Shown: piece by piece, positions 9,038 to 25,174 of the stretch
How the letters are laid out: every line of letters starts with the position of its first letter
How positions within the stretch are numbered: the stretch's first letter is position 1
Assembly: GCF_011383005.1 (NCBI RefSeq)
Contig: NZ_CP049935.1
Location: 620,001-684,000, forward strand
Length of the DNA stretch: 64,000 nucleotides
Direction of reading: 5' to 3'
Source of the DNA: Phycicoccus sp. HDW14
Lineage (GTDB): Bacteria; Actinomycetota; Actinomycetes; Actinomycetales; Dermatophilaceae
Notes under the pieces: generated by a model
Seen by the model: only the letters and a program-made list of their open reading frames with translations
What the model was told of the DNA's origin: nothing
Database searches by the model: none
Position numbers and translations under genes: made by a program

Positions 9038-9063
9038 CCTCGACCTCCACCTAGTCTGGCGCC

Positions 9064-9528: not shown

Positions 9529-9533
9529 GAGGC

Positions 9534-9674: not shown

Positions 9675-11261
9675 GTGACCAAGCCCGTCGTCCTCATCGC
9701 CGAGGAGCTCTCGCCCGCGACCATCGACGCCCTCGGACCCGATTTCGAGGTGCGCCACACCGATGGCGCCGACCGCTCCCAGCTGCTCCCGGCCATCGCC
9801 GACGTCGACGCGATCCTCATCCGCTCGGCCACGAAGGTCGACGCGGAGGCGATCGCCGCCGCGAAGAACCTCAAGGTCGTCGCCCGCGCCGGTGTCGGCC
9901 TCGACAACGTCGACGTCGACGCCGCCACGAAGGCCGGCGTCATGGTCGTCAACGCGCCCACCTCGAACATCACCTCCGCCGCCGAGCTCGCGGTCGGCCT
10001 GCTGCTGGCCTGCGCGCGCAACATCGCGCCGGCCAACGAGGTCCTCAAGGGCGGCAAGTGGGCCCGGAGCAGGTACGGGGGCGTCGAGCTGCTCGAGAAG
10101 AAGGTCGGCATCGTCGGCTTCGGGCGCATCGGCCAGCTCGTCGCCGAGCGGCTCAAGGGCTTCGGCGTCGAGATCCTCGCCTACGACCCCTACGTCTCGG
10201 TCCAGCGCGCCGGCCAGCTCGGCGCCCGCCTCGTCACCCTCGACGAGCTGCTCGCCGAGTCCGACTTCATCACCATCCACCTGCCGAAGACCGCCGAGAC
10301 GATCGGCCTCATCGGCAAGGAGGCGCTCGAGAAGGTCAAGCCGAGCGTGCGCATCATCAACGCCGCCCGCGGTGGGGTCCTCGACGAGGAGGCCCTCGCG
10401 GCCGCCATCTCCGAGGGCCGGGTCGCCGGTGCCGGGCTCGACGTCTTCGCCACCGAGCCCTGCACCGACAGCCCGCTCTTCGCCTTCGAGTCGGTCGTCG
10501 TCACGCCGCACCTCGGCGCCTCCACGGAGGAGGCCCAGGAGAAGGCCGGCGTCGCGGTCGCGAAGTCGGTGCGCCTCGCGCTCGGTGGCGACCTCGTCCC
10601 CGACGCGGTCAACGTCTCCGGCGGCGCCGTCGACGAGGAGGTCCGCCCGGGCATCGACCTCGTCGAGAAGCTCGGCCGCGTGTTCACCGCCATCGCCGGC
10701 TCGGTGCCGGTGCAGCTCGACGTCGAGGTCCGGGGCGAGATCACCGCGCACGACGTCTCGGTCTGGGAGCTCTCGGCGCTCAAGGGCCTGTTCACCGACA
10801 TCACCGAGGACCCGGTCACGTACGTCAACGCCCCGCTCCTGGCCAAGGAGCGCGGGCTGGAGTCCCGGCTGGTCACCGACGGCAGCAGCGAGGACTACCG
10901 CAACGTCACGACGCTGCGCGGCACGCTCGCCGACGGCACGGTCGTCTCGGTCGCCGGCACCCTCACCGGGCCGAAGCTCGTCCAGAAGGTCACCGGCGTC
11001 CACGGCTACGACCTCGAGGTCCCGCTGAGCCGGCACCTCGCGTTCTTCTCCTACGTCGACCGTCCCGGCGTCATCGGCTCGATCGGTCGCCTGCTCGGCG
11101 ACTCCGACGTCAACATCGCCGCGATGCAGGTCTCGCCGCACGATGCCGACGGCACCGCCATGGTCGCGCTGACCGTCGACCGGGAGATCCCGGACGAGGT
11201 GGTCGCCGCGATCGGCCGCGAGATCGGCGCGGACACCGTCCGGGTCGTCAACCTCGTCTGA
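9675..11261 (+). CDS. serA: D-3-phosphoglycerate dehydrogenase
   Basis: First enzyme of serine biosynthesis, oxidising 3-phosphoglycerate with NAD+. 528 residues, the long actinobacterial type: substrate domain, NAD domain with GFGRIGQLVAERL near 148, catalytic Arg in NAARGGVLDE near 230, Glu in ATEP and His in TPHLGAST near 278, then an allosteric substrate-binding domain (about 315-450) and a C-terminal ACT domain (FFSYVDRPGVIGSIG) for serine feedback. GTG 9675 follows AAGGGATCA. Its 3' end overlaps the convergent gene by 14 bases. Confidence 0.95.
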   Translation: MTKPVVLIAEELSPATIDALGPDFEVRHTDGADRSQLLPAIADVDAILIRSATKVDAEAIAAAKNLKVVARAGVGLDNVDVDAATKAGVMVVNAPTSNITSAAELAVGLLLACARNIAPANEVLKGGKWARSRYGGVELLEKKVGIVGFGRIGQLVAERLKGFGVEILAYDPYVSVQRAGQLGARLVTLDELLAESDFITIHLPKTAETIGLIGKEALEKVKPSVRIINAARGGVLDEEALAAAISEGRVAGAGLDVFATEPCTDSPLFAFESVVVTPHLGASTEEAQEKAGVAVAKSVRLALGGDLVPDAVNVSGGAVDEEVRPGIDLVEKLGRVFTAIAGSVPVQLDVEVRGEITAHDVSVWELSALKGLFTDITEDPVTYVNAPLLAKERGLESRLVTDGSSEDYRNVTTLRGTLADGTVVSVAGTLTGPKLVQKVTGVHGYDLEVPLSRHLAFFSYVDRPGVIGSIGRLLGDSDVNIAAMQVSPHDADGTAMVALTVDREIPDEVVAAIGREIGADTVRVVNLV

Positions 11262-11760
11262 GCCCCACCGCGTCCGGACGGCGGCCGGCCCCCTCGGGGG
11301 TGGGCCGCCGTTCGCGTGTGGCCCAGAGCCCGGCGGCCAGGGCCAGGGCCCACAGCAGGAAGAGCGGGTCCCAGAGCAGGACGTGGCCGCGGGTGGCCAC
11401 CGGGTCGTCGAGGGGGCCGAGGACGCCGGTGAGCGCCACGGCGCCGGCCACGGTGTTCGCCAGCCCGTAGAGCCCGAGCCCGGCGGCACCGAGCCAGGCC
11501 GCGAGACGCAGGCCGTGGCGCGGTCCGCCGCGCCGGGCGGCCACCCAGGGCACCCAGGCCGCGGCGAGCTTGCCGACCCCGATCGTGCCGAGGGCCAGCC
11601 CGGCGGACAGGGGTGAGGCCTCGCGCCACGAGCGCGCCCACTCGCCGACGGTCTCGACGAGCAGGTCCCCACCGAGGGCCCAGGAGATGCTGGCCACGGC
11701 GTGCACCGTGCCGAGCACGGCCGCGAGGGTGAACCAGGACAGGGGAGGGCGGCGGGTCAT
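11248..11760 (-). CDS. DUF3995 domain membrane protein
   Basis: 170 residues with four hydrophobic segments. The ASISWALGGDLLVETVGEW motif near the N-terminus and the DPLFLLWALALAAGLW end are typical of DUF3995 proteins, small four-helix membrane proteins of unknown function in actinobacteria. ATG 11760 is preferred (MTRRPPLSWFTLAAV); longer starts upstream would add a Gly/Arg-rich tail not expected in the family. Convergent with serA. Confidence 0.6.
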   Translation of the reverse strand: MTRRPPLSWFTLAAVLGTVHAVASISWALGGDLLVETVGEWARSWREASPLSAGLALGTIGVGKLAAAWVPWVAARRGGPRHGLRLAAWLGAAGLGLYGLANTVAGAVALTGVLGPLDDPVATRGHVLLWDPLFLLWALALAAGLWATRERRPTPEGAGRRPDAVGLRRG

Positions 11761-12085
11761 GCCTCCATCGTCGGTCGGCCCCACGGTGGAGGACATGGGG
11801 GTCGACCCGGAGCGACCCCGGAGTGGCGCCGGGTCGTGCACCGGTGCAACCTCTCCTCGAGCTCGCCGCTGCCGTGGTCTCGAGGCGCCGGTCGGGCCAG
11901 GCCGCGCGCACCTCCGTGTCGGGGCCGACCACGCGGTCGTCCTGCTGCCGCCGCGTCTGCGGATCCCGGCGTCCGGAGTGGTCGTCGGTGCCGGATCCGG
12001 TGGTCACGGCCCCGTGTGACGCGCATCTCAGCGGTGCAGGCGTCCACATGGTGAAAGCCGGATGACCGGTACTAGGACGTCCACG
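11761..12085. other. Intergenic stretch with no supported gene
   Basis: About 325 bases between the divergent DUF3995 gene and the branched-chain leader. Several short open frames exist on both strands but none shows a start with ribosome site, a conserved motif or consistent codon bias. It may hold regulatory DNA or a decayed gene. Confidence 0.4.
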
Positions 12086-12091
12086 TACCGT
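12086..12091 (+). promoter_or_regulatory. -10 box of the leuB-region leader
   Basis: TACCGT at 12086-12091, six bases before the leader ATG, with ATGACC at 12062-12067 as a possible -35 at 18-base spacing. Same leaderless geometry as the ilvB leader. Confidence 0.4.
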
Positions 12092-12097
12092 CGAGGC

Positions 12098-12148
12098 ATG
12101 ACGCGGCTCGTGGTACTCCTCATTCCCGGCCGCGGCGAGGCCCGGTAG
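12098..12148 (+). CDS. Branched-chain leader peptide (MTRLVVLLIPGRGEAR)
   Basis: Sixteen-residue ORF with six branched-chain residues in a row, Leu-Val-Val-Leu-Leu-Ile, encoded CTC GTG GTA CTC CTC ATT; GTA and ATT are rare in this genome. The stop TAG is 12146-12148. A GAGG lies just before the ATG and a -10 box six bases further up. A stem begins inside its 3' end. This is the signature of a transcription-attenuation leader sensing Leu/Val/Ile-tRNA, and leuB is the next biosynthetic gene, 336 bases downstream. Confidence 0.7.
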   Translation: MTRLVVLLIPGRGEAR

Positions 12149-12209
12149 TCAGCACCCTCGCCGCGGAGACCCCGCGACGTCGCTGACCGCTCGCCGGCTG
12201 AACGCCGGC
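12130..12209 (+). promoter_or_regulatory. Leader hairpins after the branched-chain peptide
   Basis: A perfect 11-bp stem (12130-12140 with 12156-12166) overlaps the end of the leader ORF and its stop codon; a second 6-bp GCCGGC stem lies at 12193-12198 with 12204-12209. The first stem has the same position relative to the leader stop as in the ilvB leader. Which alternative structure is the antiterminator was not resolved. Confidence 0.55.
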
Positions 12210-12267
12210 TCGAGCTCCGGACCATCCCCACCCCGTGCGGCACCGCGCCGCGGATCGAGAGACGACG

Positions 12268-12363
12268 ATGAACGAGACGACCACGACCACCGAGGCCGAG
12301 CTGGCCCGCCAGGCGCTGCAGGAGTCGATGGACCTGCGCGACCAGGGTCACTCGGACGACTGA
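12268..12363 (+). CDS. Candidate 31-residue acidic small protein
   Basis: Complete ORF from ATG 12268 to TGA 12361-12363. It begins MNETTTTT, continues [12 protein letters not shown] with a likely amphipathic helix, and ends in an Asp-rich tail (GHSDD). No known domain. The ribosome site (GAGAG, eight bases up) is weak. It lies between the branched-chain leader and two strong hairpins, upstream of leuB. It could be a real micro-protein of the attenuated transcript or chance; synonymous-site conservation in relatives would decide. Confidence 0.4.
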
Positions 12364-12372
12364 CTCCCGCCG

Positions 12373-12395
12373 GGGCCCACGCTCGGCGTGGGCCC
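12373..12395 (+). terminator. Hairpin, 10-bp GC stem
   Basis: GGGCCCACGC-TCG-GCGTGGGCCC, a perfect 10-bp stem with a 3-base loop, ten bases after the small ORF. No T-run. Probable terminator of the leader transcript. Confidence 0.55.
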
Positions 12396-12410
12396 GACCG
12401 AGGACCGGCC

Positions 12411-12450
12411 GACGGCCGTCCCACCCGTTCCGCGGGCTGGGACGGCCGTC
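12411..12450 (+). terminator. Second hairpin with duplicated palindrome GACGGCCGTC
   Basis: A 13-bp perfect stem (12411-12423 with 12438-12450) whose loop can pair further. Each arm contains the self-complementary 10-mer GACGGCCGTC, so the pair could also be a repeated protein-binding dyad. It ends 21 bases before the leuB -10 box. Confidence 0.5.
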
Positions 12451-12471
12451 CGCATCCCGGACCGATGTTCC

Positions 12472-12477
12472 TACAGT
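12472..12477 (+). promoter_or_regulatory. Leaderless -10 box of leuB
   Basis: TACAGT at 12472-12477 ends seven bases before ATG 12485. It gives leuB its own promoter downstream of the leader hairpins. Confidence 0.5.
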
Positions 12478-12484
12478 GGAGCCC

Positions 12485-13558
12485 ATGACCGCCGCCACGG
12501 ACGCCCCGGTGCCGACCTCCCTCGACCTCGCCGTCATCGGCGGCGACGGCATCGGCCCGGAGGTCGTCGCCGAGGGGCTCAAGGTCCTCGAGGCGGTGCT
12601 CGGCGCGGACGGCCCGAAGGTCACGACGACCGAGTACGACCTCGGCGCCCGTCGCTGGCACGCGACCGGCGAGACGCTGCCCGAGTCGGTGCTCGAGGAG
12701 GTCAAGGCGCACGACGCCATCGTCCTCGGCGCCATCGGCGACCCCACCGTGCCGAGCGGGGTCCTCGAGCGCGGGGTCCTGCTGCCGCTGCGCTTCGCCC
12801 TCGAGCACTACGTCAACCTCCGTCCGGCCAGGCTGTACCCGGGCGTCGAGAGCCCGCTCGCCGTCGAGCGGGTCGCACCCGACGGCATCGACTTCGTCGT
12901 CGTCCGCGAGGGCACCGAGGGTCCGTACACCGGCAACGGCGGCGCCCTGCGCGTCGGCACGCCCCACGAGATCGCCACCGAGGTGAGCGTCAACACCCGC
13001 TTCGGTGTCGAGCGCGTCGTCCGCGACGCCTTCGCCCGCGCCCAGGCCCGCCCGCGCCGGCACCTGACGCTCGTCCACAAGCACAACGTGCTGACCCACG
13101 CCGGCCACCTGTGGCGGCGCACGGTCGAGGAGGTCGGCGCCGAGTTCCCCGACGTCGAGACCGCCTACCAGCACGTCGACGCCGCGACGATCTTCCTGGC
13201 CACCGACCCCGGACGCTTCGACGTCGTCGTCACCGACAACCTCTTCGGCGACATCATCACCGACATCGCCGCGGCGATCGCGGGCGGCATCGGGCTGGCC
13301 GCGAGCGGCAACATCAACCCCGAGGGCCGCTACCCGAGCATGTTCGAGCCGGTGCACGGCTCGGCCCCGGACATCGCCGGGCAGGGGAAGGCCGACCCCA
13401 CGGCCACCGTGCTGTCGGTCGCGATGCTCCTGGCCCACGTCGGGCTGCCCGACGCTGCCGCGCGGGTCGAGCAGGCGGTCGCGGCCGACCTCGCCGAGCG
13501 GGGGAGCGCGCCGCGCTCGACCACCGCCGTCGGTGAGGCCATCGCCGCCCGCCTCTGA
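12485..13558 (+). CDS. leuB: 3-isopropylmalate dehydrogenase
   Basis: NAD+-dependent oxidative decarboxylation of 3-isopropylmalate in leucine synthesis. Starts with the family motif [12 protein letters not shown] near residue 18; [14 protein letters not shown] carries substrate arginines; [12 protein letters not shown], the Lys of VHKHNVL and the Asp cluster [15 protein letters not shown] complete the active site; [14 protein letters not shown] binds the cofactor. 357 residues, normal. ATG 12485 is set by the leaderless -10. Followed by ilvE 73 bases on, with a short stem (CCCCGGC/GCCGGGG) in the gap. Confidence 0.95.
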
Positions 13559-13631
13559 CCCACCCCGGCGGCGGGTAACCTGCCGGGGAAGCATGCACCG
13601 TCGCGCCCCGAGGAAAGGACCGACCCGTCCC

Positions 13632-14726
13632 ATGAGCCTGACCTTCGACGTCGAGCGCCGGACCGACCCCGCGAGCGACGAGCGCCGCGCCGAGATCCTC
13701 GCCAACCCCGGCTTCGGGGTGTACTTCACCGACCACATGGCCAGCGCCACGTGGACCAAGGGCGAGGGCTGGCACGACGGTCGCATCCACCCGTACGGCC
13801 CCATCACGATCATGCCGAGCGCCGCGGTGCTGCACTACGCGCAGGAGGTCTTCGAGGGCCTCAAGGCCTACCGGCACGCGGACGGCTCGGTCTGGTCCTT
13901 CCGCCCCGAGGCCAACGCCGAGCGGATGCAGCGCAGCGCGCGCCGCCTGGCCCTGCCCGAGCTGCCGACCGACGACTTCCTCGCCTCGCTCAAGGCCCTC
14001 GTCGAGGTCGACGAGCCGTGGGTGCCGGCCGCCGGCACGGGCGAGACGAGCCTCTACCTCCGTCCGTTCCTCTACGCGTCCGAGGCCTTCCTCGGGGTGC
14101 GCCCGGCCAACGAGGTCACCTACTCGGTCATCGCCTCGCCCGCCGGTGCCTACTTCCCGCGCGGCCTGAAGCCGGTCACCCTCTGGATCTCCGAGCACTA
14201 CGCCCGGGCCGGCGCCGGGGGCACCGGCGCCGCGAAGACCGGTGGCAACTACGCCTCGTCGCTCGCCGGCCAGCTGGAGGGCATCGAGAACGGGTGCGAC
14301 CAGGCCGTGTTCCTCGACTCCGCGACGCACACGTACATCGAGGAGCTCGGCGGGATGAACCTGTTCCTCGTCACCGACGACGGACGCCTGCTGACCCCCG
14401 AGCTCACGGGCACCATCCTCGAGGGCGTCACCCGCAGCTCCATCCTCGAGCTCGCCAAGGGCCTGGGCCTGGAGCCCGAGGAGCGGCGCATCGAGATCGA
14501 GGAGTGGAAGGACGGCGTGCGCGACGGCAGCATCACCGAGGTGTTCGCCTGCGGTACGGCTGCCGTCGTCACGCCGGTCGGCGAGCTGCGCTGGGAGGGC
14601 GGGTCGGCCCCGTCCACCGCGGGCGAGGAGGGCGGCGAGGTGACGCGCTCGATCCGCGCGGCGCTGCTCGACGTGCAGTACGGCCGCGCCGAGGACACCC
14701 ACGGCTGGCTGACCCGCCTCGCCTGA
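13632..14726 (+). CDS. ilvE: Branched-chain amino acid aminotransferase
   Basis: PLP enzyme that makes the final transamination of valine, leucine and isoleucine with glutamate. Class IV fold: EVFEGLKAY near residue 75, the PLP lysine in GAAKTGGNYA near 202, and IEELGGMNLF and ACGTAAVVTPVG near the C-terminus. 364 residues, the actinobacterial BCAT length. ATG 13632 follows GAGGAAAGGACC. Probably cotranscribed with leuB. Confidence 0.95.
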   Translation: MSLTFDVERRTDPASDERRAEILANPGFGVYFTDHMASATWTKGEGWHDGRIHPYGPITIMPSAAVLHYAQEVFEGLKAYRHADGSVWSFRPEANAERMQRSARRLALPELPTDDFLASLKALVEVDEPWVPAAGTGETSLYLRPFLYASEAFLGVRPANEVTYSVIASPAGAYFPRGLKPVTLWISEHYARAGAGGTGAAKTGGNYASSLAGQLEGIENGCDQAVFLDSATHTYIEELGGMNLFLVTDDGRLLTPELTGTILEGVTRSSILELAKGLGLEPEERRIEIEEWKDGVRDGSITEVFACGTAAVVTPVGELRWEGGSAPSTAGEEGGEVTRSIRAALLDVQYGRAEDTHGWLTRLA

Positions 14727-14796: not shown

Positions 14797-14818
14797 AATG
14801 GTCCTCCCGGGAACCATT
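14797..14818. promoter_or_regulatory. GntR/FadR-type operator 1 overlapping the permease -35
   Basis: Half-sites TGGTCC (14799-14804) and GAACCA (14811-14816) at N6 spacing, flanked as AA/TT. The same motif with the same spacing precedes the GntR gene at 19969-19990. The right end overlaps a perfect -35 TTGACA at 14817-14822; a weak -10, TTGTCT, is at 14841-14846. Binding here would block RNA polymerase. Confidence 0.6.
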
Positions 14819-14867: not shown

Positions 14868-14880
14868 GGACCAATGGTCC
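14868..14880. promoter_or_regulatory. GntR/FadR-type operator 2 (GGACCA-A-TGGTCC)
   Basis: A perfect 13-bp palindrome built of the same half-sites as operator 1 but in everted order, 25 bases before the permease start and downstream of the probable transcription start. It could support repressor looping or a second dimer. Confidence 0.5.
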
Positions 14881-14904
14881 GCTTCTGGACACCAAGAGGT
14901 GCAC

Positions 14905-16572
14905 GTGAGCACGTCCCGGACGACCGACAACAGCAGCAGCGACGAGGACCTCCTCGCCTCACTGGGCTACAAGCAGGAGCTGAACCGCACCTGGTCGAGC
15001 TTCTCCAACTTCGCGATCTCCTTCTCGATCATCTCCATCCTCGCCGGGTGCTTCACGACCTTCGGGCAGGCCTGGAACAACGGCGGCCCGATCGCCATCT
15101 CGATCGGCTGGCCGCTGATCTCGATCTTCATCCTCATCATCGGCTTCTGCATGTCCGAGCTGGTCTCGGCCTACCCGACGTCGGGCGGCATCTACTGGTG
15201 GGCCGCCAAGCTCGGCGGCGCCAAGGCCGGCTACTACACCGGCTGGCTCAACCTCGTCGGGCTGCTGGCCATCGACGCCTCGGTGGCCTACGGCGCCGCG
15301 ACGTTCTTCGACCTCTCGTTCAGCACGATGAGCGAGTCGTGGGCGGCGGGGTACTCGCTGACCCGCGTCTTCATCATGTTCCTCGTCGTCCTCGTCATCA
15401 CCGCCTGCATCAACATCTTCGGCGGCCACCTGCTCGCACTGCTCAACAACATCTCGGTGTGGTGGCACGTCATCGGGGCGGCGGTCGTCATCGCGATCCT
15501 CGTGTTCCTGCCGGACAAGCACATGAGCATCAGCGACGTCTTCACCATGCGCGTCAACAACAGCGGTGGCCTGGCCGGCGGTGAGGACAGCGGCATCGGC
15601 TTCTGGTTCTACGTCCTGCCCCTCGGCTTCCTCCTGACGCAGTACACGATCACCGGGTTCGACGCGTCGGCCCACCTCTCCGAGGAGACCCAGGGCGCGG
15701 CCGACGGTGCGGCCAAGGGCATCTGGCGCTCGATCTTCTACTCGGCGATCGGCGGCTGGTTCCTCCTGCTGGCCTTCCTCTTCGCCGTGCAGGACCCCGA
15801 GGCCGTGACGGCCGGTGGTGGCGGAGTCGCCGTCATCTTCAACCAGGCGCTCTCGTCCGGCTGGGCCGGCACGGTCCTGCTCATCGCGAGCATCGCCCAG
15901 GTGTTCTGCACCGCGGCCTGCATGACGTCCACGAGCCGGATGCTCTTCGCGTTCAGCCGCGACGGTGCGGTCCCCGGGTCGGCGAACTGGGCGCGGCTCA
16001 ACGCCCGCAAGGTGCCGGCCAACGCCGTCATCGTGTCCTCGGTCATCGCCGCGATCATCACGCTCCCGGCCCTCGTCGAGGTCAACCTCGGCACCGAGGA
16101 GGCCCCGCTCATCGTCCCCGTGGCCTTTTACGCCGTGGTCTCGGTCGGCGTCATCGGGCTCTACACGGCCTTCGCCATCCCGATCTTCCTGCGCTGGCGG
16201 ATGGGTGACGCCTTCCCCCAGGGGAAGTGGAACCTCGGGACGAAGTGGAAGTGGATGGCGCCGGTCGCGGTCCTGGAGATCGTCCTCATCTCGATCTACT
16301 TCATCCTCCCGTTCACTCCCGCGGCCAACCCGTTCCACGAGACCTTCGAGTGGAAGTTCGTCAACTACGCCCCGATCCTCATGGGCGGCACGCTGATCCT
16401 GCTGTGGATCGGCTGGCACCTGTCGGCGAAGAAGTGGTTCACCGGGCCCAAGACGACGGTCGACCTGCCCGCGGGCATGACGAGCGCCGACGAGATCCGC
16501 CTGGAGCACCACGGCAAGACCGCCCACGGCGGCACGGAGCACGACTGGAAGCCCGGCGACCCGCTCGCCTGA
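14905..16572 (+). CDS. APC-superfamily amino acid/amine permease
   Basis: 555-residue secondary transporter with 12 predicted helices. The N-terminus DLLASLGYKQELNRTWSSFSNFAISFSIISILAG is characteristic of the GABA/choline/ethanolamine-type branch of the APC superfamily, and YPTSGGIYWWAA and TGFDASAHLSEETQGA are further family motifs. GTG 14905 follows AAGAGG by five bases; GTG 14899 is also in frame. First gene of a three-gene operon with the kinase-like and FAD-GcvT genes, preceded by two operators shared with the downstream GntR operon. Likely imports the amine used by this cluster. Confidence 0.85.
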   Translation: MSTSRTTDNSSSDEDLLASLGYKQELNRTWSSFSNFAISFSIISILAGCFTTFGQAWNNGGPIAISIGWPLISIFILIIGFCMSELVSAYPTSGGIYWWAAKLGGAKAGYYTGWLNLVGLLAIDASVAYGAATFFDLSFSTMSESWAAGYSLTRVFIMFLVVLVITACINIFGGHLLALLNNISVWWHVIGAAVVIAILVFLPDKHMSISDVFTMRVNNSGGLAGGEDSGIGFWFYVLPLGFLLTQYTITGFDASAHLSEETQGAADGAAKGIWRSIFYSAIGGWFLLLAFLFAVQDPEAVTAGGGGVAVIFNQALSSGWAGTVLLIASIAQVFCTAACMTSTSRMLFAFSRDGAVPGSANWARLNARKVPANAVIVSSVIAAIITLPALVEVNLGTEEAPLIVPVAFYAVVSVGVIGLYTAFAIPIFLRWRMGDAFPQGKWNLGTKWKWMAPVAVLEIVLISIYFILPFTPAANPFHETFEWKFVNYAPILMGGTLILLWIGWHLSAKKWFTGPKTTVDLPAGMTSADEIRLEHHGKTAHGGTEHDWKPGDPLA

Positions 16573-16587
16573 CGCGGGGCACCCACC

Positions 16588-17490
16588 GTGACCCGCACCG
16601 ACGACGAGGTGCTCGACGGCATCCCCGTCCTCGCCGGGCAGGGGCGTGAGACCACGCCCCTGCCCGGTGGGCTCACCAACCGCAACCTCCGGGTGCGCAC
16701 CGACTCCGGGCTCGACGTCGTCGTACGCATCTCCTCGCCGGACACCGGCCTGCTCGGGGTCGACCGGCACGCCGAGTTCGTCAACACCCTCGCCGCTGCG
16801 GCCACCGGGGTCGGGGCGCCGGTCGTCGACTACCTCGGGGGCCGCGGGGTGCTGGTCGTGGCGTTCCTGCCGGGCCGCACCTGGGGCGACGCCGACGTCG
16901 CGGCCAACCTGCCCCGGCTCGCCGCGGCGCTGCGGCGGCTGCACGCTGCGCCGGGTTTCGTCGGCCGCTTCGACATGACCGTGCTGCGCCGCCGCTACCT
17001 CGAGGTGGTGCAGGAGAAGGGGTTCCGCCTCCCCGACGGCTACCTCGACCTCGAGCCCTGGGTGCAGCGGGCGGAGGACGCCCTCGCGCTGGCCCCCGAG
17101 CGGCTCGTGCCCTGCCACAACGACCTGCTCGCCGCGAACGTCCTCGACGACGGCGGCGACCTGCGCATCATCGACTACGAGTACTCCGGGATGAACGAGC
17201 CCTCCTTCGAGCTCGGCAACGTCGTCGCCGAGGCGCGCCTGGGCCCCGACGCCCTCGCCGAGCTCTGCGCCGCCTACTACGGACGCCACGACCCCGCCGA
17301 TGCCGCGCGTGCCGAGCTCTGGGGGTTCCTCGCCCGCTACGGCTGGACGCTGTGGGGCGTCATCCAGGAGGGGGCCAGCGAGCTCGACTTCGACTTCCGC
17401 GCCTGGTCGATGGCCAAGCTCGACCCCGCCCGCGAGCTGGCCCACGGGCCGCGCTTCGAGGGCCTGCTCGCGACGGTGGCCGGACGATGA
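16588..17490 (+). CDS. Choline/ethanolamine kinase-like protein
   Basis: 300-residue APH-fold kinase. The catalytic loop CHNDLLAANVL near residue 172 and the metal-binding IIDYEYSGMNEPSFELGN near 190 are the choline/ethanolamine kinase version of the HxDxxxxN and DxE motifs. Such enzymes phosphorylate small amino-alcohols with ATP. GTG 16588 is 15 bases after the permease stop; the stop overlaps the next start as ATGA, indicating tight coupling. In this setting it may act on an imported amino-alcohol, but the substrate is inferred. Confidence 0.75.
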   Translation: MTRTDDEVLDGIPVLAGQGRETTPLPGGLTNRNLRVRTDSGLDVVVRISSPDTGLLGVDRHAEFVNTLAAAATGVGAPVVDYLGGRGVLVVAFLPGRTWGDADVAANLPRLAAALRRLHAAPGFVGRFDMTVLRRRYLEVVQEKGFRLPDGYLDLEPWVQRAEDALALAPERLVPCHNDLLAANVLDDGGDLRIIDYEYSGMNEPSFELGNVVAEARLGPDALAELCAAYYGRHDPADAARAELWGFLARYGWTLWGVIQEGASELDFDFRAWSMAKLDPARELAHGPRFEGLLATVAGR

Positions 17491-19955
17491 GCACGGTCGC
17501 GCTCCCCGGCCGGGCCCGCGTGGTCGTCATCGGCGGAGGGGTCATCGGCGCCTCGGTCGCCTACCACCTCGCCCACCTCGGCGTCACGGACGTGCTCGTC
17601 CTCGAGCAGGGCACCCTGTCGTGCGGAACCACCTGGCACGCAGCCGGACTCGTCGGCCAGCTGCGGGCCAGCGAGGCCGGCACGCGGCTGGTCCGCTGGT
17701 CGACCGAGCTCTACGGGCGGCTCGAGGCCGAGACCGGGCTCTCCACCGGCTACCGGGTCTGCGGGGGCCTGACCCTGGCCCGCACGCCGGAGCGGATGGT
17801 CCAGCTGCGGCGCACCGCGGCCAGCGCGGCCGCCTACGACCTCGACTGCGAGCTGCTGACGCCGGGGCAGGCCGCCGAGCGCTACCCGCTCATCCGGTCC
17901 GACGACCTCGAGGGCGCCATCTGGCTCCCGGGGGACGGGCGGGCCGATCCCGCCGACCTCACCCAGGCGCTGGCCCGCGGCGCGCGGATGCTCGGGGTGC
18001 AGGTCGCCGAGCGGGTGCGCGTCACCGGCCTGCGGGTGCAGGAGCGGGGCGATCGGCGTCGGGTCACCGGCGTGGTCACCGAGCACGGCGAGGTCGAGTG
18101 CGAGGTCGTCGTCAACGCGGCGGGGCAGTGGGCGCCGCTCGTCGGGGCGATGGCGGGCGTCGACGTGCCGCTGCACTCCGCCGAGCACTTCTACGTCGTC
18201 ACCGACCAGGTCGAGGGGGTGCACCGCGACCTGCCGGTGCTGCGCGACCCCGACGGGTACACCTACGTCAAGGAGGAGGTCGGCGGCCTGCTCGTCGGCG
18301 GCTTCGAGCCCGAGGCCAAGCCGTGGGTGGCGCCGGAGGACATCCCGCACCCCTTCGAGTTCCAGCTGCTCGACGAGGACTGGGAGCACTTCGAGGTGCT
18401 CATGGACAGCGCCATCCACCGGCTGCCCGTGCTCGCGGAGACCGGGATCCGCAAGTTCTACAACGGCCCGGAGTCGTTCACGCCCGACAACCAGTTCGTC
18501 CTGGGGGAGGCGCCCGAGTGCGCCGGCCTGTTCGTGGCGGCCGGTTTCAACTCGGTCGGCATCGCCTCGGCCGGCGGGGCGGGGCGCGCGCTGGCCGAGT
18601 GGGTGGTGCACGGCGAGCCGACGCTCGACCTCACCGCCGTCGACATCCGCCGCTTCCCGACCGTGGCCGCCAACCGCTCCTGGCTCCGTTCACGGGTGGC
18701 CGAGGTGCTGGGCCTGCACTACGCCGTGCCGTGGCCGAACCGCGAGCTCGACACCGGTCGGCCGCAGCGGTGCTCGCCCCTGTACGACCGGACCCTCGCG
18801 CGGGGAGCGGTGATGGGCAGCCGCAACGGGTGGGAGCGTCCGCTCGTCTTCGCGGCGCCCGGGGAGGAGCCGCGGCTCGACTACTCGTGGGAGCGACCGG
18901 CGTGGGCCGACTGGTGCGACACCGAGCAGCGGGCCACCCGCTCGGCCGTCGCGGTGTTCGACCAGACCTCCTTCAGCAAGTACCTCGTCACCGGGCCGGA
19001 CGCGCTCGCGACCCTCCAGTGGGTCTGCACCGCCGACGTCGACGTGCCCGTGGGGAGGGCGGTCTACACGGGGATGCTCGACTCCTCGGCCGGCTACCAG
19101 GCCGACGTGACGGTGACCCGCACCGGACCCGAGGAGTTCCTCGTCGTGTCCAGCGCGGCCACGACGCGGCGCGACCTCGACCACCTCGCGCGCCACCGGG
19201 TCGGCACCCCGGCCGTCGTCGACGTCACGAGTGCCTACGCGGTGCTCGGGGTGATGGGTCCGCGCTCGCGCGAGCTCCTGTCGCGCCTGACGCCGGCCCC
19301 GCTCGACGACGCGGCGCACCCGTTCGGCACCTCGCGCGTCATGGACGTCGGACGGACGCGCCTGCGCGCCACTCGGATCACGTACGTCGGTGAGCTCGGC
19401 TGGGAGCTGTACGTCCCGACCGAGCAGGCCACCGTGCTGCACGACGAGCTGTTCGAGGCCGGTGCCGACCTCGGGGTCGTGCCGGCCGGTTACTCGGCCA
19501 TCGAGGCTCTGCGGCTCGAGAAGGGGTACCGGGCGTTCGGGCGCGAGCTCACCCCCGAGGTCACGCCCGTCGAGGCCGGGCTGCTCTTCGCCTGCGCCCT
19601 CTCCGGCCCGGGCGACTTCCTCGGCCGCACCGCCCTGGAGGCGCGCCGGGCGCAGGGGCCGGCCCGGCGGGTGGTCTCCCTCGTCGCGCAGGACCCCGAG
19701 GCCTGGCTGTGGGGCGGCGAGCTCGTGCTGCGCGACGGCGAGCCGGTGGGGCAGGTGACCAGTGCCGCCGGGGGCGCGACCCTCGGCGCCTCCGTCGGGC
19801 TGGCCCTCGTCGGTGACCGGCGCACGGCGACGGCGACGACGGCGTGGTGCGACACGGGCTCGTGGGAGGTCGACCTCGCGGGGGAGCGGGTGCCCGTCCG
19901 GGTGTCACGCCGGCCCCCGTTCGACCCGGACGGCGACAGGCTGGGCCGGACGTGA
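17487..19955 (+). CDS. FAD-dependent oxidoreductase-GcvT fusion (dimethylglycine/sarcosine dehydrogenase-like)
   Basis: 822 residues. The N-terminal DAO domain has VVIGGGVIGASVAYHLA at 13-29 and TWHAAGL near 49-55, whose His is the covalent FAD attachment site in dimethylglycine and sarcosine dehydrogenases. A central FAO_M-type linker follows, then from about 430 a GcvT folate-binding domain (YTGMLDSSAGYQADVTVTR, LGVMGPRSRELL, GYSAIEALRLEKGYRAFG) and a GcvT C-terminal barrel. The family oxidises N-methyl amines and passes the one-carbon unit to tetrahydrofolate. ATG 17487 overlaps the kinase stop. In this cluster it may oxidise a methylated or glutamylated amine; no substrate is proven. Confidence 0.8.
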   Translation: MSTVALPGRARVVVIGGGVIGASVAYHLAHLGVTDVLVLEQGTLSCGTTWHAAGLVGQLRASEAGTRLVRWSTELYGRLEAETGLSTGYRVCGGLTLARTPERMVQLRRTAASAAAYDLDCELLTPGQAAERYPLIRSDDLEGAIWLPGDGRADPADLTQALARGARMLGVQVAERVRVTGLRVQERGDRRRVTGVVTEHGEVECEVVVNAAGQWAPLVGAMAGVDVPLHSAEHFYVVTDQVEGVHRDLPVLRDPDGYTYVKEEVGGLLVGGFEPEAKPWVAPEDIPHPFEFQLLDEDWEHFEVLMDSAIHRLPVLAETGIRKFYNGPESFTPDNQFVLGEAPECAGLFVAAGFNSVGIASAGGAGRALAEWVVHGEPTLDLTAVDIRRFPTVAANRSWLRSRVAEVLGLHYAVPWPNRELDTGRPQRCSPLYDRTLARGAVMGSRNGWERPLVFAAPGEEPRLDYSWERPAWADWCDTEQRATRSAVAVFDQTSFSKYLVTGPDALATLQWVCTADVDVPVGRAVYTGMLDSSAGYQADVTVTRTGPEEFLVVSSAATTRRDLDHLARHRVGTPAVVDVTSAYAVLGVMGPRSRELLSRLTPAPLDDAAHPFGTSRVMDVGRTRLRATRITYVGELGWELYVPTEQATVLHDELFEAGADLGVVPAGYSAIEALRLEKGYRAFGRELTPEVTPVEAGLLFACALSGPGDFLGRTALEARRAQGPARRVVSLVAQDPEAWLWGGELVLRDGEPVGQVTSAAGGATLGASVGLALVGDRRTATATTAWCDTGSWEVDLAGERVPVRVSRRPPFDPDGDRLGRT

Positions 19956-19968
19956 CACACTTTCGGGA

Positions 19969-19990
19969 ATTGGTCCAGAACCGGACCATT
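19969..19990. promoter_or_regulatory. GntR/FadR-type operator 3, upstream of the regulator gene
   Basis: TGGTCC (19971-19976), six bases, GGACCA (19983-19988), flanked AT/TT. Identical half-sites and spacing to operator 1 upstream of the permease. It lies 60 bases before the GntR start, in the gap after the FAD-GcvT gene, consistent with autoregulation and a shared regulon. Confidence 0.65.
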
Positions 19991-20049
19991 GGATGCGGCG
20001 CCCCGTGTACGGGCACGCCGCGAACGGCCGGCGCGCGAGGAGGACGGCG

Positions 20050-20774
20050 ATGACGCACCCAGCGGGCGCCACCCACCTGCCGTCGGTCATCCTGCGGCAC
20101 ACACCGGGCAACCCGTTCGAGACCACCGTCGAGCAGCTGGCGACGGCCATCCGCCTCGGGGTGCTCGTCGACGGCGACCAGCTGCCCCCGAGCGCGAGCT
20201 CGCCGAGCAGCTGGGGGTCGCGCGCAACACCCTCCGCGACGCCATCGCGGCGCTGCGCGACGCCGGGCTCGTGACCACCCGGCGGGGCCGCGGCGGCGGC
20301 ACGGTCGTCACGTACGCGGCCCCGGCCCCCGGGTCCGGAGGTCCGGGCGTGCGCCGCGGCGCCACCCTCCTCGACGCCCTCGACTTCCGGAGGGTCGTCG
20401 AGCCCGGGGCGGCCTGGCTCGCGGCCACCCGCGAGTTGTCCGGCGACCAGCGCTCCTGGCTCGCGACGTCGCTGCGCGAGACGACCGCGGCGAGCAGCCC
20501 GGGCGCGCACCGGCTGGCCGACAGCCGGCTGCACCTGGCCATCGCCACCGTGTCGGGCTCGCCGATGCTCATCGAGGCGGTCACCCGGGCCCAGGCGGCC
20601 CTGGGCGAGCTCCTCGAGGCGATCCCGGTGCTGCGCAAGAACATCCAGCACTCCCACGACCAGCACGAGGCGATCGTCGGTGCCATCCTGTCGGGAGCGG
20701 CAGAGAACGCACGGACCGCCATGGAAGAGCACTGCGACGCCACGTCCGCGCTGTTGCGCGGACTCATCGGATGA
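20050..20774 (+). CDS. GntR-family (FadR subfamily) regulator (frame broken at 20185-20189)
   Basis: About 241 residues after repair. The N-terminal winged helix reads NPFETTVEQLATAIRLGVL, then PERELAEQLGVARNTLRDAIAALRDAGLV, and a C-terminal all-helical FCD ligand domain follows (LDFRRVVEPGAAWLAA, DSRLHLAIATVSGSPML, DQHEAIVGAILSG). The frame changes at the C run 20185-20189; one more C gives the conserved LPPERELAEQLGVSR-like motif, so the gene is taken as intact. ATG 20050 follows GAGGAGG. Operators of TGGTCC-N6-GGACCA type lie upstream of it and of the permease operon; it is the natural candidate to bind them and respond to an amine or its glutamyl derivative. Confidence 0.85.
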
Positions 20775-20787
20775 CTGGAGGAGCACC

Positions 20788-22173
20788 ATGACGAGCTCGA
20801 TCCACCGCGGGGGACCGCCACAGCTCACGCTCGAGCAGCTGCGCGCCGACGTGGCCGACGGCACGGTCGACACCGTGATCGTCGCGTTCACGGACATGCA
20901 GGGGAGGTTGCAGGGCAAGCGGATCCACGGCGCGTTCTTCCTCGAGCACGTCCTCGAGGCGGGCACCGAGGGCTGCAACTACCTGCTCGCCGTCGATGTC
21001 GACATGAACACGGTCGACGGCTACGCCATGTCCTCGTGGGAGCGTGGCTACGGCGACATGTTCTTCGAGATGGACCTCTCGACCCTGCGCCGCACGCCCG
21101 GCTTCCCGACCTCGGTGACCATCCAGAGCGACCTCACCTGGCTCGACGGGTCCGGCGAGGTCGTGCAGTCGCCGCGCAGCATCCTCAAGAAGCAGGTGGC
21201 CGTCGCCGAGGAGGCCGGGTGGGGCGCCTTCGCCGGGACGGAGCTCGAGTTCATCCTCTTCGACGAGACCTACGAGCAGGCCTGGGACCGCCGCTACCAC
21301 GGGCTCACGGGGTCCAACCGGTACAACGTCGACTACTCGATCCTCGGCGGCAGCAAGGTCGAGCCGGTGCTGCGCGAGATCCGCAACGAGATGTACCGCG
21401 CCGGGATGACCGTCGAGTCGGCCAAGGGCGAGTGCAACTTCGGCCAGCACGAGATCGGCTTCCTCTTCGACGAGGTGGTGCGCACGTGCGACAACCACAC
21501 CGTCTACAAGACCGGGGCCAAGGAGATCGCCGCCCGCCACGGCCAGTCCCTGACCTTCATGGCCAAGTTCGACGAGCGCGAGGGCAACTCCTGCCACATC
21601 CACCTGTCGCTGCGCGGCACCGGCGGCGAGGTCGTCTTCGCCGACGACGAGCGCGACGGCGGGCGCTCCGAGCTGTTCGACCACTTCCTCGCCGGCCTGC
21701 TGGCGACGATGCGTGAGCTCACGTACTTCTACGCGCCGAACATCAACTCCTACAAGCGGTTCGCCGCCGGGTCGTTCGCGCCCACCGCCGTCGCCTGGGG
21801 CACCGACAACCGCACGTGCGCGCTGCGGGTCGTCGGCCACGGTGCCGGTCTGCGCGTCGAGAACCGGGTGCCCGGGGGCGACGTCAACCCCTACCTCGCG
21901 GTCGCCGCGATGATGGCCGGCGGGCTGCACGGCATCCGCGAGGGCCTCGAGCTGCCTCCGGTCTGCGAGGGGAACGCCTACAAGGGCGACTACGAACACG
22001 TCCCGACGACCCTGCGGGAGGCGCGCGACCTGCTCGCGTCCAGCGAGGTCGCCCGGGCAGCGTTCGGCGACGAGGTCGTCGACCACTACGTCAACGCCGC
22101 CGACGTCGAGATCACCGCGTTCACCGCGGCGGTCACCGACTGGGAGCGGGTCCGCGGATTCGAGAGGCTGTGA
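20788..22173 (+). CDS. Glutamine synthetase-like gamma-glutamyl-amine ligase
   Basis: 461-residue GS-fold enzyme, shorter and distinct from housekeeping GlnA. Motifs: [19 protein letters not shown] (beta-Grasp start), GTELEFILF near 150 (metal Glu), [26 protein letters not shown] near 266 and [12 protein letters not shown] for ATP/phosphate. It resembles GlnA3/GlnA4-type or PuuA-type ligases that join glutamate to polyamines or ethanolamine. ATG 20788 follows GGAGGAGCACC, 13 bases after the regulator. With ALDH, SDR and the PuuD-like amidase it forms a gamma-glutamylation pathway; which amine is used cannot be read from sequence. Confidence 0.85.
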
Positions 22174-22183
22174 GCACCCAGCG

Positions 22184-23569
22184 ATGAGCACCACCACGCA
22201 CGACGTCATCGACCCGGCGACCGAGGAGGTCGTCACGACGATCGACCTCGCGGGCCTTGAGGAGACCGACGCCGCCGTCGCCCGCGCCGTCGAGGTCGAC
22301 CCGGCCTGGCGGGCGGTGAGCCCCGCCGACCGCGGGATGTTGCTGCGCCGCTTCGCCGACGTCGTCGAGGAGCACGCCGAGGAGCTAGCCCGGCTCGAGG
22401 TCCGCAACGCCGGGCACACCATCGGCAACGCGCGGTGGGAGGCGGGCAACGTCGTCAACGTCCTGCGCTACTACTCCGCCGCGCCCGAGCGCCTCTTCGG
22501 CCGGCAGATCCCCGTCGCCGGCGGCCTCGACGTCACCTTCAAGGAGCCGCTCGGCGTCGTCGGCGTCATCGTCCCGTGGAACTTCCCCATGCCGATCATG
22601 GGGTGGGCGATGGGCCCGGCCCTCGCGGCGGGGAACACGGTGGTGCTCAAGCCCGCCGAGCTGACCCCGCTGACGGCGATGCGCATCGGCGAGCTCGCGC
22701 TCGAGGCGGGCATCCCGGAGGGCGTGCTGACCATCCTGCCCGGGCCCGGCCGCGTCGTCGGCGAGCGCTTCGTCACCCACCCCGACGTCCGCAAGGTCGC
22801 GTTCACCGGCTCGACCCCGGTGGGGCAGGGCATCATGCGCGGCGCCGCCGAGCACCTCAAGCGGGTCACCCTCGAGCTCGGCGGCAAGTCCGCCAACATC
22901 GTCTTCGCCGACGCCGACCTCGACAAGGCGGCCGCCGCGGCCCCGATGAGCTTCCTGGACAACGCCGGCCAGGACTGCTGCGCCCGCACCCGGATCCTCG
23001 TGCAGCGCAGCGTCTACGACGCCTTCATGGAACGCTTCGAGGCGGCCGTCAAGGGCGTCGTCGTCGGCGACCCGGGCGACGAGGCCACCGAGATGGGCCC
23101 GCTCGTCAGCGACCGCCAGCGCGAGGTCGTCCGGGGCTACGTCGACGGGACCGACGGCCACGACGCGGTCGACGTCGCCTTCCGCGGCTCGGCGCCCGAG
23201 GGCCGCGGCTGGTGGTACCCGCCCACGGTCGTGCTGCCGCGGGACACCGACGACCGTGTCTGGCGCGAGGAGGTCTTCGGGCCGGTCGTCGCCGTCCTGC
23301 CCTTCGAGGACGAGGCCGACGCCGTCGCCAAGGCCAACGACACCGAGTACGGCCTCGCCGGGTCGATCTGGACCCGCGACGTCGGTCGTGCCCTGCGCGT
23401 GGCACGAGGCGTCGAGGCCGGCAACCTGTCGGTCAACAGCCACAGCTCGGTGCGCTACTCCACCCCGTTCGGCGGCTTCAAGAGCAGCGGCATCGGGCGC
23501 GAGCTCGGCCCCGACGCCCTCGACGCGTTCACCGAGGTGAAGAACGTCTTCATCTCGACCGAGGACTGA
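22184..23569 (+). CDS. NAD(P)+-dependent aldehyde dehydrogenase
   Basis: 461 residues. General base Glu in [10 protein letters not shown] near 231; catalytic Cys in [12 protein letters not shown] near 265; [11 protein letters not shown] and KPAELTPL bind the cofactor; [12 protein letters not shown] near 366 and [15 protein letters not shown] near the end are typical. The length is slightly below the usual 480-490. ATG 22184 is 11 bases after the GS-like gene. Likely oxidises the aldehyde of the gamma-glutamylated amine, as PuuC does in putrescine degradation. Confidence 0.85.
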
Positions 23570-23600
23570 CCCCACCCCACCAACACCCCAGGGAGAGAAC

Positions 23601-24368
23601 ATGGCAGGCAGGCTCGAGGGCAAGGTCGCCGTCGTCACCGGTGGCTGCTCCGGCATCGGCCTCGCGACGGTGCGCCGCTTCGCCGAGGAGGGCGCGACGG
23701 TCGTCGTCGGCGACCTCGCCGACGACGCCGGCGAGGCCCTCGCGGCGGAGATCGGTGGCGCGTACGTGCACACCGACGTGGCGAGCAAGGAGGACGTCGA
23801 CCGCCTCTTCGCGACCGCCGTCGAGAAGTTCGGGAAGCTCGACATCGCCTTCAACAACGCCGGCATCAGCCCGCCGGAGGACGACTCGATCCTCGACACC
23901 GACCTCGAGGCGTGGCGCCGCGTGCAGGAGGTCAACCTCACCTCCGTGTACCTCTGCTGCAAGGCGGCCCTGCCGTACATGCTCGAGAACAAGCGCGGCT
24001 CGATCATCAACACGGCGTCCTTCGTCGCGGTGATGGGTGCGGCGACGTCGCAGATCTCGTACTCGGCGTCCAAGGGCGGTGTGCTGTCGATGACCCGTGA
24101 GCTCGGGGTGCAGTTCGCCCGAGAGGGCATCCGGGTCAACGCCCTGTGCCCCGGCCCGGTGAACACACCGCTCCTCAAGGAGCTGTTCGCCAAGGACGCC
24201 GAGCGGGCCGCCCGCCGCCTCGTCCACGTGCCGATGGGCCGCTTCGGCGAGCCGGAGGAGATGGCCAACGCGGTGCTCTTCCTCGCCTCCGACGAGTCGA
24301 GCTTCATGACCGCCTCGACCTTCCTCGTCGACGGCGGCATCTCCGGCGCCTACGTCACGCCGCTCTGA
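23601..24368 (+). CDS. SDR-family 3-oxoacyl-like oxidoreductase
   Basis: 255-residue classical short-chain dehydrogenase. TGGCSGIGLA at 13-22 binds the cofactor, NNAGISPP near 90 stabilises it, catalytic YSASK at 154-158 with the Ser of NTASF upstream, and DGGISGAY at the end. ATG 23601 follows AGGGAGAGAAC. In this operon it may oxidise a hydroxyl of the glutamylated substrate (for example of an amino-alcohol such as ethanolamine) to the aldehyde taken by the neighbouring ALDH; this is inference from context. Confidence 0.85.
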   Translation: MAGRLEGKVAVVTGGCSGIGLATVRRFAEEGATVVVGDLADDAGEALAAEIGGAYVHTDVASKEDVDRLFATAVEKFGKLDIAFNNAGISPPEDDSILDTDLEAWRRVQEVNLTSVYLCCKAALPYMLENKRGSIINTASFVAVMGAATSQISYSASKGGVLSMTRELGVQFAREGIRVNALCPGPVNTPLLKELFAKDAERAARRLVHVPMGRFGEPEEMANAVLFLASDESSFMTASTFLVDGGISGAYVTPL

Positions 24369-24376
24369 GGTCCGAC

Positions 24377-25174
24377 GTGACGCAGCACCGCCCGGTCATC
24401 GGCATCACCTGCTACGTCGAGGACGTCGACCGGCCCCCGTGGGTCGGCCAGCGCAGCGCCGTGCTGCCGTACCGGTACGTGGCGCAGGTCGAGGCGGCGG
24501 GCGGCCTCGCGGTCGTCCTGCCGCCGCGCACCGACGTCGACGAGGCGATGGCCCGCGAGGTCGTCGCGCGGGTCGACGGGCTCGTCGTCGCCGGGGGAGC
24601 GGACGTGTCCGCGCACCTGTACGGCGCTGCGCCGCACCCGACCTCGCAGGACCCGCGCCCCGACCGTGACGCCTGGGAGACCGCCCTCGTGCGGGCCGCC
24701 GAGGAGGTCGACCTGCCACTGCTCGGCATCTGCCGGGGGATGCAGGTGATGGCGGTGGCCGCCGGCGGGCGCATCGAGCAGCACGTGCCCGACCGGGTCG
24801 GCCACGAGGCGCACTCGCCACGGCCGGGCGTCTACTCGTCGCACCACGTCGACCCGGTCGTGGGCAGCCGGCTCGCCGGGGTGATCGGCGAGGACGCCGT
24901 CGACGTCCCGACCTACCACCACCAGGCGGTCGTCGCCGACTCGCTCGAGGGCACCGGGTGGGCGCCCAGCGCGTGGCACGACGACGGGACGCTCGAGGCG
25001 ATGGAGGTGCCGGCCGCGCGCTTCCGGCTCGCCGTCCAGTGGCACGCCGAGGAGGGCGAGCACCCGGCGCTGTTCACCGCGCTCGTCGAGGCCGCGTCCG
25101 AGGCACCCTCAGGCGTTGAGCCGGCGCCGCAACCGAGCCCGCCCGACGACCCCGGAGGCGAGCACGAGCGCTGA
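24377..25174 (+). CDS. Gamma-glutamyl-gamma-aminobutyrate hydrolase-like (PuuD-like) class I amidotransferase
   Basis: 265 residues. Class I GATase fold with nucleophile Cys in LLGICRGMQVM near 119, and His/Glu in QWHAEEGEHP near 223; PVIGITCY at the start and VDGLVVAGGADV are typical of peptidase C26 / PuuD. Would release glutamate from the oxidised gamma-glutamyl intermediate, closing the pathway begun by the GS-like ligase. GTG 24377 is nine bases after the SDR. The last 21 residues, after EAASEAPS, run 66 bases into the convergent gene and are Pro-rich, so the native end may have been changed by whatever brought that neighbour. Confidence 0.8.
   Translation: MTQHRPVIGITCYVEDVDRPPWVGQRSAVLPYRYVAQVEAAGGLAVVLPPRTDVDEAMAREVVARVDGLVVAGGADVSAHLYGAAPHPTSQDPRPDRDAWETALVRAAEEVDLPLLGICRGMQVMAVAAGGRIEQHVPDRVGHEAHSPRPGVYSSHHVDPVVGSRLAGVIGEDAVDVPTYHHQAVVADSLEGTGWAPSAWHDDGTLEAMEVPAARFRLAVQWHAEEGEHPALFTALVEAASEAPSGVEPAPQPSPPDDPGGEHER

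Follow-up and report, generated by a model that had tools for sequence, protein, structure and literature searches.

What would lead an actinobacterium to place a glutamylation pathway for amines under the same control as a demethylase of the dimethylglycine dehydrogenase (DMGDH) or sarcosine dehydrogenase type and a choline-kinase-like protein? The question is raised by Phycicoccus sp. HDW14, in a window of 64,000 nucleotides (contig NZ_CP049935.1, positions 620,001 to 684,000). There, a first-pass annotation had listed a permease (PERM), a kinase (KIN), an FAD-GcvT demethylase (FAD), a GntR regulator, a glutamine synthetase (GS)-like ligase, an aldehyde dehydrogenase (ALDH), a short-chain dehydrogenase/reductase (SDR) and a PuuD-like amidase. 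Domain matches bear out this list, placing all eight proteins on the + strand within 14905-25174, with every gene complete except that of the regulator. The combination of functions in one regulon also survives comparison with relatives: operator, synteny and co-occurrence couple the kinase-demethylase module to the glutamyl pathway, a coupling that we hold with high confidence. The N-methylated amino alcohol proposed by that annotation remains the best-fitting substrate, and is probably an N-methylated ethanolamine.

The reading we favour is a two-operon regulon for N-methylethanolamine, perhaps N,N-dimethylethanolamine, together with ethanolamine. The permease would take up the amine, KIN would add a phosphate to its hydroxyl, and the demethylase would strip the N-methyl group from the phosphorylated amine, giving phosphoethanolamine and methylene-tetrahydrofolate (methylene-THF). 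A phosphatase would then free ethanolamine, which the ligase, SDR, ALDH and amidase would turn into glycine by way of gamma-glutamyl derivatives, recovering the glutamate. We give this whole route, from import through the phospho-intermediate to the glutamyl pathway, an even chance; that the kinase precedes the demethylase and that a phosphatase acts between them and the ligase is what we infer from the gene set.

The two operons are joined by a shared operator. A palindrome, AATGGTYC-N6-GRACCATT, precedes the permease without mismatch and the regulator with one, and in a scan of the whole genome (4.07 Mb, single contig) it was absent from all other places at up to one mismatch, which upholds the earlier assignment of both operons to the same regulon. 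Allowing two mismatches added one place, genome position 2229821 (two mismatches; locus L133), and a control pattern had none in the same scan. Using a motif model trained on the regions upstream of the regulator in 25 loci (23 sites; genomes G333, G288 and G328 left out), we found that in a simple control, in which dinucleotide blocks were shuffled, 0 of 2000 shuffles equalled the score of the permease operator. Sites were found before the stand-alone permeases of G333, G288 and G328 (shuffles as good: 0, 1 and 0 of 2000), before 25 of 25 permeases in adjacent clusters and before 17 of 17 permeases in ligase clusters without the demethylase in the locus, the latter two sets each scoring above 98.5% of 200 shuffles. 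Therefore one regulator type serves the whole set. The regulator matches EpuRI of S. coelicolor in family (GntR/FCD) and neighbourhood. Its gene spans two frames (20040-20330). Compared with three aligned relatives in which the frame is intact (L086, L010, L088), a C/G run near 20186 differs in length by one base; either the assembly is in error there or the regulator has recently been broken. By eye we also noticed a stretch before the permease, ACCAATGGTCCGCTTCTGGAC (14871-14891), that is a near reverse complement of the operator at 19969 and may be a second operator site.

Synteny and co-occurrence tell the same story within the family. Taking matches to the demethylase of at least 64% identity as FAD-A, we found it in 30 of 149 family genomes (partial in G255 and G347, with one internal stop in G288). 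The ligase is present in all 30, compared with 51 of the 119 others (Fisher p = 6e-10, uncorrected for relatedness). The window and 25 fetched loci, together 26 of the 30, keep the order PERM-KIN-FAD-GntR-GS-ALDH-SDR-PuuD, and PERM-KIN-FAD lies apart from the ligase operon in G333, G288 and G328, in G333 by 2.3 Mb on one contig; adjacency in G347 was counted neither way because of its short contigs. Among 87 fetched ligase loci, a set partly chosen for the demethylase, 62 lack KIN and FAD in the locus, and three of these have the module elsewhere.

Beyond the family, a phylum sample of 396 genomes (threshold at least 60%) yielded FAD-A in five, this one included; in the other four (G414, G728, G733 and G757) KIN lies beside FAD-A, and a ligase homolog is found elsewhere at 62, 62, 46 and 46% identity, respectively. 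KIN adjoins the demethylase in 33 of 34 FAD-A genomes found by searching with the demethylase, and the single miss is on a short contig. Scanning named genomes with a KIN alignment and taking the best 80 of at least 565 relatives, we found an FAD-GcvT gene within 2.5 kb of KIN in 73 loci, 69 of them whole and 4 cut by a contig end. Among the remainder, L225 has two such genes, 3 and 7 kb from KIN, and the flank of L167, L173 and L183 is shorter than 2 kb on at least one side. A pathway ligase, SDR or ALDH (above 55% identity) falls within the fetched stretch of 25 of the 80 loci, 16 with the family arrangement and nine with other gene orders (L170, L176, L177, L180, L207, L208, L211, L215 and L225). 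Of the 55 loci without such genes, 42 genomes were searched for the ligase (L149, L150, L189, L210 and nine on short contigs were left out) and 39 encode it elsewhere at 54-67% identity, against a background of 103 of 396 at the same threshold (101 of 394 in the Fisher test, for which two genomes were removed). The ligase-bearing genomes with the kinase-demethylase pair include assemblies of 1.0-1.8 Mb, mostly metagenome-assembled genomes, and a complete chromosome of 1.55 Mb (L193).

The first-pass annotation had named separation of the operons in relatives as a finding that would refute its reading. Separation does occur, in at least 3 of the 30 family genomes and in 55 of the 80 KIN loci (fetched stretch without a pathway gene), yet even then the module mostly co-occurs with the ligase (39 of 42 genomes searched), and it keeps the operator in the three family cases. 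Even at a distance from the ligase, the kinase regularly accompanies the demethylase. The earlier suggestion that the demethylase acts on a glutamylated methylamine is not favoured, because kinase and demethylase occur as a unit independently of the ligase and the demethylase is thus bound up with a kinase. Among the other gene orders, L208 of Planosporangium thailandense reads HAD-SDR-ALDH-PuuD-GS-FAD-C-KIN-permease-FAD-A-L-serine dehydratase-PurU (formyl-THF deformylase), where the last two enzymes would dispose of glycine and methylene-THF.

The ordinary part of the cluster is its second operon, which carries the GlnA4-type gamma-glutamyl-ethanolamide pathway already described in Streptomyces. 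S. coelicolor GlnA4 (SCO1613) gamma-glutamylates ethanolamine (Krysenko et al. 2019, PMC6529630), and that paper gives the SDR, ALDH and amidase steps to glycine and glutamate as predictions. By homology the ligase here would be a gamma-glutamyl-ethanolamide synthetase; by analogy the SDR would be gamma-glutamyl-ethanolamide dehydrogenase, the ALDH would turn the gamma-glutamyl aldehyde into gamma-glutamyl-glycine, and the amidase would be gamma-glutamyl-glycine hydrolase. E152, E154, E215, E222, H270, E358 and Phe330 fall in motifs that correspond to published GlnA4 residues, a match made by motif and not by alignment to the GlnA4 sequence itself. The metal and glutamate residues are kept, and Phe330 replaces the flap Glu of GS, as described for GlnA4; Phe stands at this position in 115 of 120 ligase matches (at least 43% identity, fetched loci, some genomes counted twice). 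SDR, ALDH and amidase are all present in 82 of the 87 fetched ligase loci, as they are in the window. Across the order the ligase was found in 51 of 248 genomes, and across the family in 81 of 149; that of G369 is 94% identical to the one here.

The reading frames of KIN and the demethylase overlap by ATGA (17487-17490). KIN matches the Pfam Choline_kinase model at 63.1 bits (cut-off 29) and the APH model more strongly, at 71.4; its best NCBIfam match, GntI, is far below cut-off (180.6 versus 357), and its profile matches include 3dxq, the LicA choline kinase 4r77 and human choline kinases. Aligned to these, it keeps the (H/N)ND...N, IDYEY and WxLW motifs, with N178, D179, N184, D196, E198, W253 and W256 invariant and His or Asn preceding N178 in 13 aligned homologs. 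We take the first two motifs to be catalytic and WxLW to form the amine pocket of choline kinases. KIN would, from these features, phosphorylate ethanolamine or its N-methylated forms.

The pairing is clearly kept across separate demethylase clades. A midpoint-rooted FastTree of 115 FAD-GcvT proteins, built with no 4-methylaminobutyrate oxidase (MABO) and no sarcosine dehydrogenase (SARDH) sequence, places the KIN-linked enzymes in FAD-A (41 actinobacterial proteins), FAD-B (39, found through the KIN scan) and FAD-C (3, each the second enzyme in a cluster with two demethylases), and in this SARDH-free tree the clade of our enzyme is separate from rat DMGDH and from dimethylglycine oxidase (DMGO). 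The group sister to FAD-A plus the rhizobial pair, 20 proteins that include a paralog from this genome (L050), has KIN in 0 of 20 loci. Clusters L176, L208 and L225 each carry two different FAD-GcvT genes, one from clade A and one from clade C, which may serve two demethylations in succession.

Two kinds of neighbour point to a phosphorylated substrate. A HAD phosphatase subfamily marked by DFNGTLS(D/N/E)DEP lies between KIN and the demethylase in L191, L195 and L199, divergent from KIN in L070 and L071 (G728 and G414, probably mycobacteria to judge by gene order), and, in a genome with its module elsewhere (G328, L085), 50 bases from the ligase cluster. An IMPase gene beside KIN in L207 was considered as a route phosphatase and set aside as probably an ordinary HisN (268 bits against a histidinol-phosphatase cut-off of 275). 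The second kind of neighbour comes from the closest non-actinobacterial FAD-A relatives examined, which are 56-57% identical, sit on rhizobial replicons and are accompanied by a DeoR gene. In 8 of 8 such loci (L136, L137, L142 and L231-L235, two from S. meliloti; 975 plasmid records matched the demethylase in total, most of them outside this sample), 2-aminoethylphosphonate genes lie within 8 kb, in two arrangements. L137 also holds an APC permease-GS-GMC-amidohydrolase-ALDH set 1.6 kb further along. The rhizobial enzyme is possibly an N-methyl-2-aminoethylphosphonate demethylase, and we count this neighbourhood in favour of a phospho-substrate because that compound closely resembles phospho-N-methylethanolamine. 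The flavoenzymes PbfC and PbfD of phosphonate breakdown oxidise N-methyl-2-aminoethylphosphonate and not sarcosine (PMC10590968), and so offer a precedent for a required phospho group. On this evidence, demethylation at the phosphate level is a tentative proposal, to which we give somewhat less than an even chance.

The strongest competitor, still unlikely in our judgement, has the demethylase acting on free N-methylethanolamine while KIN performs a side task, either salvage of ethanolamine or choline into phospholipid or a lowering of the free pool. Such a scheme delivers the free ethanolamine that the ligase needs and does without a phosphatase, and we found no phosphatase dedicated to the route in this genome. 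Against it, the kinase accompanies the demethylase in separate clades and also where the ligase is distant, and a phosphatase beside kinase and demethylase would create a futile cycle.

The demethylase itself has the domain order DAO, FAO_M, GCV_T and GCV_T_C, each above cut-off, and its nearest solved structures are DMGDH (4pab/5l46/4p9s) and DMGO (1pj5). Across 14 aligned proteins H51, H234, Y260 and D540 are invariant and align with rat DMGDH and/or DMGO; we take His51 to be the flavin-linking His, His234/Tyr260 the active-site pair and Asp540 the folate Asp. The flavin is predicted to be covalently bound through His51. Six positions, Arg60 and Ala360 among them, are common to FAD-A, FAD-B and FAD-C but lacking in most members of the sister group and most other proteins. 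Arg60 (nine residues past the flavin His), Gly272 and Ala360 are common to the KIN-linked and rhizobial proteins, and all three are absent from DMGDH and DMGO; Ala360 presumably occupies the position of the carboxylate-binding Lys of monomeric sarcosine oxidase. This pattern is compatible with a different anionic group in the substrate, and does not prove phosphate.

These structural matches, and the conserved flavin His, His/Tyr pair and folate Asp positions, would equally suit a sarcosine or dimethylglycine dehydrogenase of choline and betaine breakdown, co-regulated with the ligase through the shared glycine end, with KIN salvaging choline. We consider this less likely again: the pair tracks the ethanolamine ligase, and the genome holds two further FAD-GcvT paralogs (L050 and L051), of other clades and with no KIN in their loci, that could do that job. 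Neither paralog was used as a functional clue, L050 having no conserved neighbour that could be connected with amines (genes judged by eye) and L051 belonging to another clade and having been mapped with the window proteins only.

Distant relatives of KIN, at about 30% identity, open the question whether the substrate is a different N-methylated amine or amino alcohol, which need not derive from ethanolamine, with the ligase operon shared for a later product. Such relatives occur on rhizobial, Paracoccus and Arthrobacter plasmids in other gene sets, together with amidases and M20/Zn hydrolases; EutBC or a GlnA4-type ligase cluster is also present in some of these sets. Improbable as we find it, this alternative has to contend with the FAD-GcvT gene that adjoins almost every one of the 80 best KIN matches from named genomes, and with the ethanolamine ligase in 39 of the 42 genomes searched. 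As an observation in its own right, L139, L141, L143 and L144 (Paracoccus, Arthrobacter, Agrobacterium and Shinella plasmids) share a recurring set of a Zn/M20 hydrolase, a second phosphotransferase gene, an IMPase/HisN-like phosphatase and often an amidase, with EutBC alongside in L139 and L144 and a GlnA4-type cluster in L141; it may be an uncharacterised route that ends in ethanolamine. Slightly more improbable still is that the ligase glutamylates N-methylethanolamine itself and the route ends in sarcosine, which the demethylase then demethylates, a scheme close to the second idea of the first-pass annotation: the identical gene set and single operator would suit it, but it needs no kinase and most ligase clusters (the 62 of 87 above) lack the demethylase alongside.

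Several observations weigh against the phospho-intermediate route that we prefer. The HAD phosphatase accompanies only 8 of the 80 KIN loci (within 8 kb), and this genome has no clear ortholog of it (best match 37% over part of the protein), with none in the window. Arg60 is non-exclusive, occurring in 7 of 20 sister-clade proteins; three DMGDH-side proteins share Ala360, and another two share Gly272. Arg60 may, we presume, be the ordinary carboxylate-binding Arg of sarcosine-dehydrogenase-like enzymes, and mitochondrial sarcosine dehydrogenase may carry Arg at the same place. Deep support in the tree is low in places (0.11 at one node). As to linkage, KIN adjoins only a DAO-domain protein in L189, L210 has no FAD-GcvT gene near KIN, and L226 has just a weak FAD-GcvT match 8.5 kb off; 3 of the 42 genomes searched gave no ligase match, and the co-occurrence tests are uncorrected for relatedness. 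Finally, the permease type is uninformative about methylated substrates because it also stands beside ligase clusters without KIN and FAD.

Table 1. Features of the two operons, in window coordinates.
Feature	Position	Strand	Basis
Operator before permease-kinase-demethylase operon	14797..14818	.	AATGGTCCTCCCGGGAACCATT; whole-genome pattern scan and motif score
PERM, APC-type permease, 555 aa	14905..16572	+	PF13520, 168 bits; best NCBIfam TIGR00907, below cut-off
KIN, choline/ethanolamine-kinase family protein, 300 aa	16588..17490	+	PF01633
FAD, FAD-GcvT demethylase (FAD-A clade), 822 aa	17487..19955	+	DAO, FAO_M, GCV_T, GCV_T_C
Operator before regulator-ligase operon	19969..19990	.	ATTGGTCCAGAACCGGACCATT; pattern scan and motif score
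GntR/FCD regulator, frame interrupted near 20186	20050..20774	+	FCD and GntR domains
GS-like ligase, GlnA4 type, 461 aa	20788..22173	+	PF00120 (Gln-synt_C)
ALDH	22184..23569	+	PF00171, 542 bits; best NCBIfam aminobutyraldehyde dehydrogenase subfamily, below cut-off
SDR	23601..24368	+	PF13561; NCBIfam PRK06057, 489.9 bits (cut-off 404)
PuuD-like amidase (Peptidase_C26), 265 aa	24377..25174	+	PF07722, 195.9 bits

The permease is probably an importer of ethanolamine, methylated ethanolamine or both. Permeases of its type (64-67% identity) adjoin ligase clusters without KIN and FAD in L120 and L121, and ligase clusters L134/L135 likewise carry the type with no KIN-FAD alongside, so we dropped it as a marker of a methylated substrate. 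Directly before the permease, at 7946-14726, lie genes that we read by eye as ilvC, serA, leuB and ilvE; in G733 and G757 (L072 and L073), ilvB, ilvN and ilvC, read in the same way, likewise directly precede PERM-KIN-FAD.

What is new is the pairing of kinase with demethylase, which persists across separate demethylase clades and is linked to a known ethanolamine pathway. We found no description of the combination of kinase and demethylase with the glutamyl-ethanolamide pathway in the open-licence PMC literature, nor, in the same literature, of a gene set for breaking down methylated ethanolamines by such a route. Methylated ethanolamines derive from lipid head groups, and the proposed route, if true, would supply a gene set for their breakdown that extends the known ethanolamine route, give a role to a widespread kinase-demethylase pair whose present annotation is general, and reach freshwater bacteria with very small genomes. 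A broader version, put forward a shade more cautiously than the phosphate-level step, is that bacteria demethylate ethanolamines as phosphates: a phosphate added by the choline-kinase-like enzyme would replace the carboxylate that sarcosine-type demethylases need, in a scheme with a dedicated FAD-GcvT group, a phosphatase and a glutamyl finish that would be widespread in soil and freshwater Actinobacteria, the complete 1.55 Mb genome among them.

Four known systems bear comparison. The Streptomyces GlnA4 cluster shares the ligase and its motifs, the ALDH, the SDR, a glutamine amidotransferase, a regulator and, in other streptomycetes, a permease. In contrast to the locus here, the figure legend of PMC6529630 names no kinase and no FAD-GcvT gene; a text search of that paper gave no 'dimethylglycine', and 'kinase' in the reference list only. 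The S. coelicolor regulator is opposite in orientation to glnA4, according to the same source, whereas here it heads the ligase operon. PbfC and PbfD resemble our enzyme in flavin-dependent amine oxidation, on N-methyl-2-aminoethylphosphonate and within the same superfamily. As described in PMC10590968, they differ in that the other C-N bond is cleaved, releasing methylamine, and the FAD is apparently not covalent; GcvT is a term that the paper nowhere uses.

The DMGDH, DMGO and sarcosine dehydrogenase family has the same domain order and the flavin His, His234/Tyr260 and folate Asp540 positions, and rat DMGDH and Arthrobacter DMGO have other residues at the positions of Arg60, Gly272 and Ala360 in the enzyme described here, which is also kinase-paired and in a separate clade from theirs. 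In the MABO operon of nicotine breakdown, an FAD enzyme acts on a secondary N-methylamine with folate genes alongside. To our knowledge that operon has no kinase and no glutamyl pathway; its likeness to the present system is seen in the two-demethylase clusters L176 and L208, which have PurU and serine dehydratase beside them.

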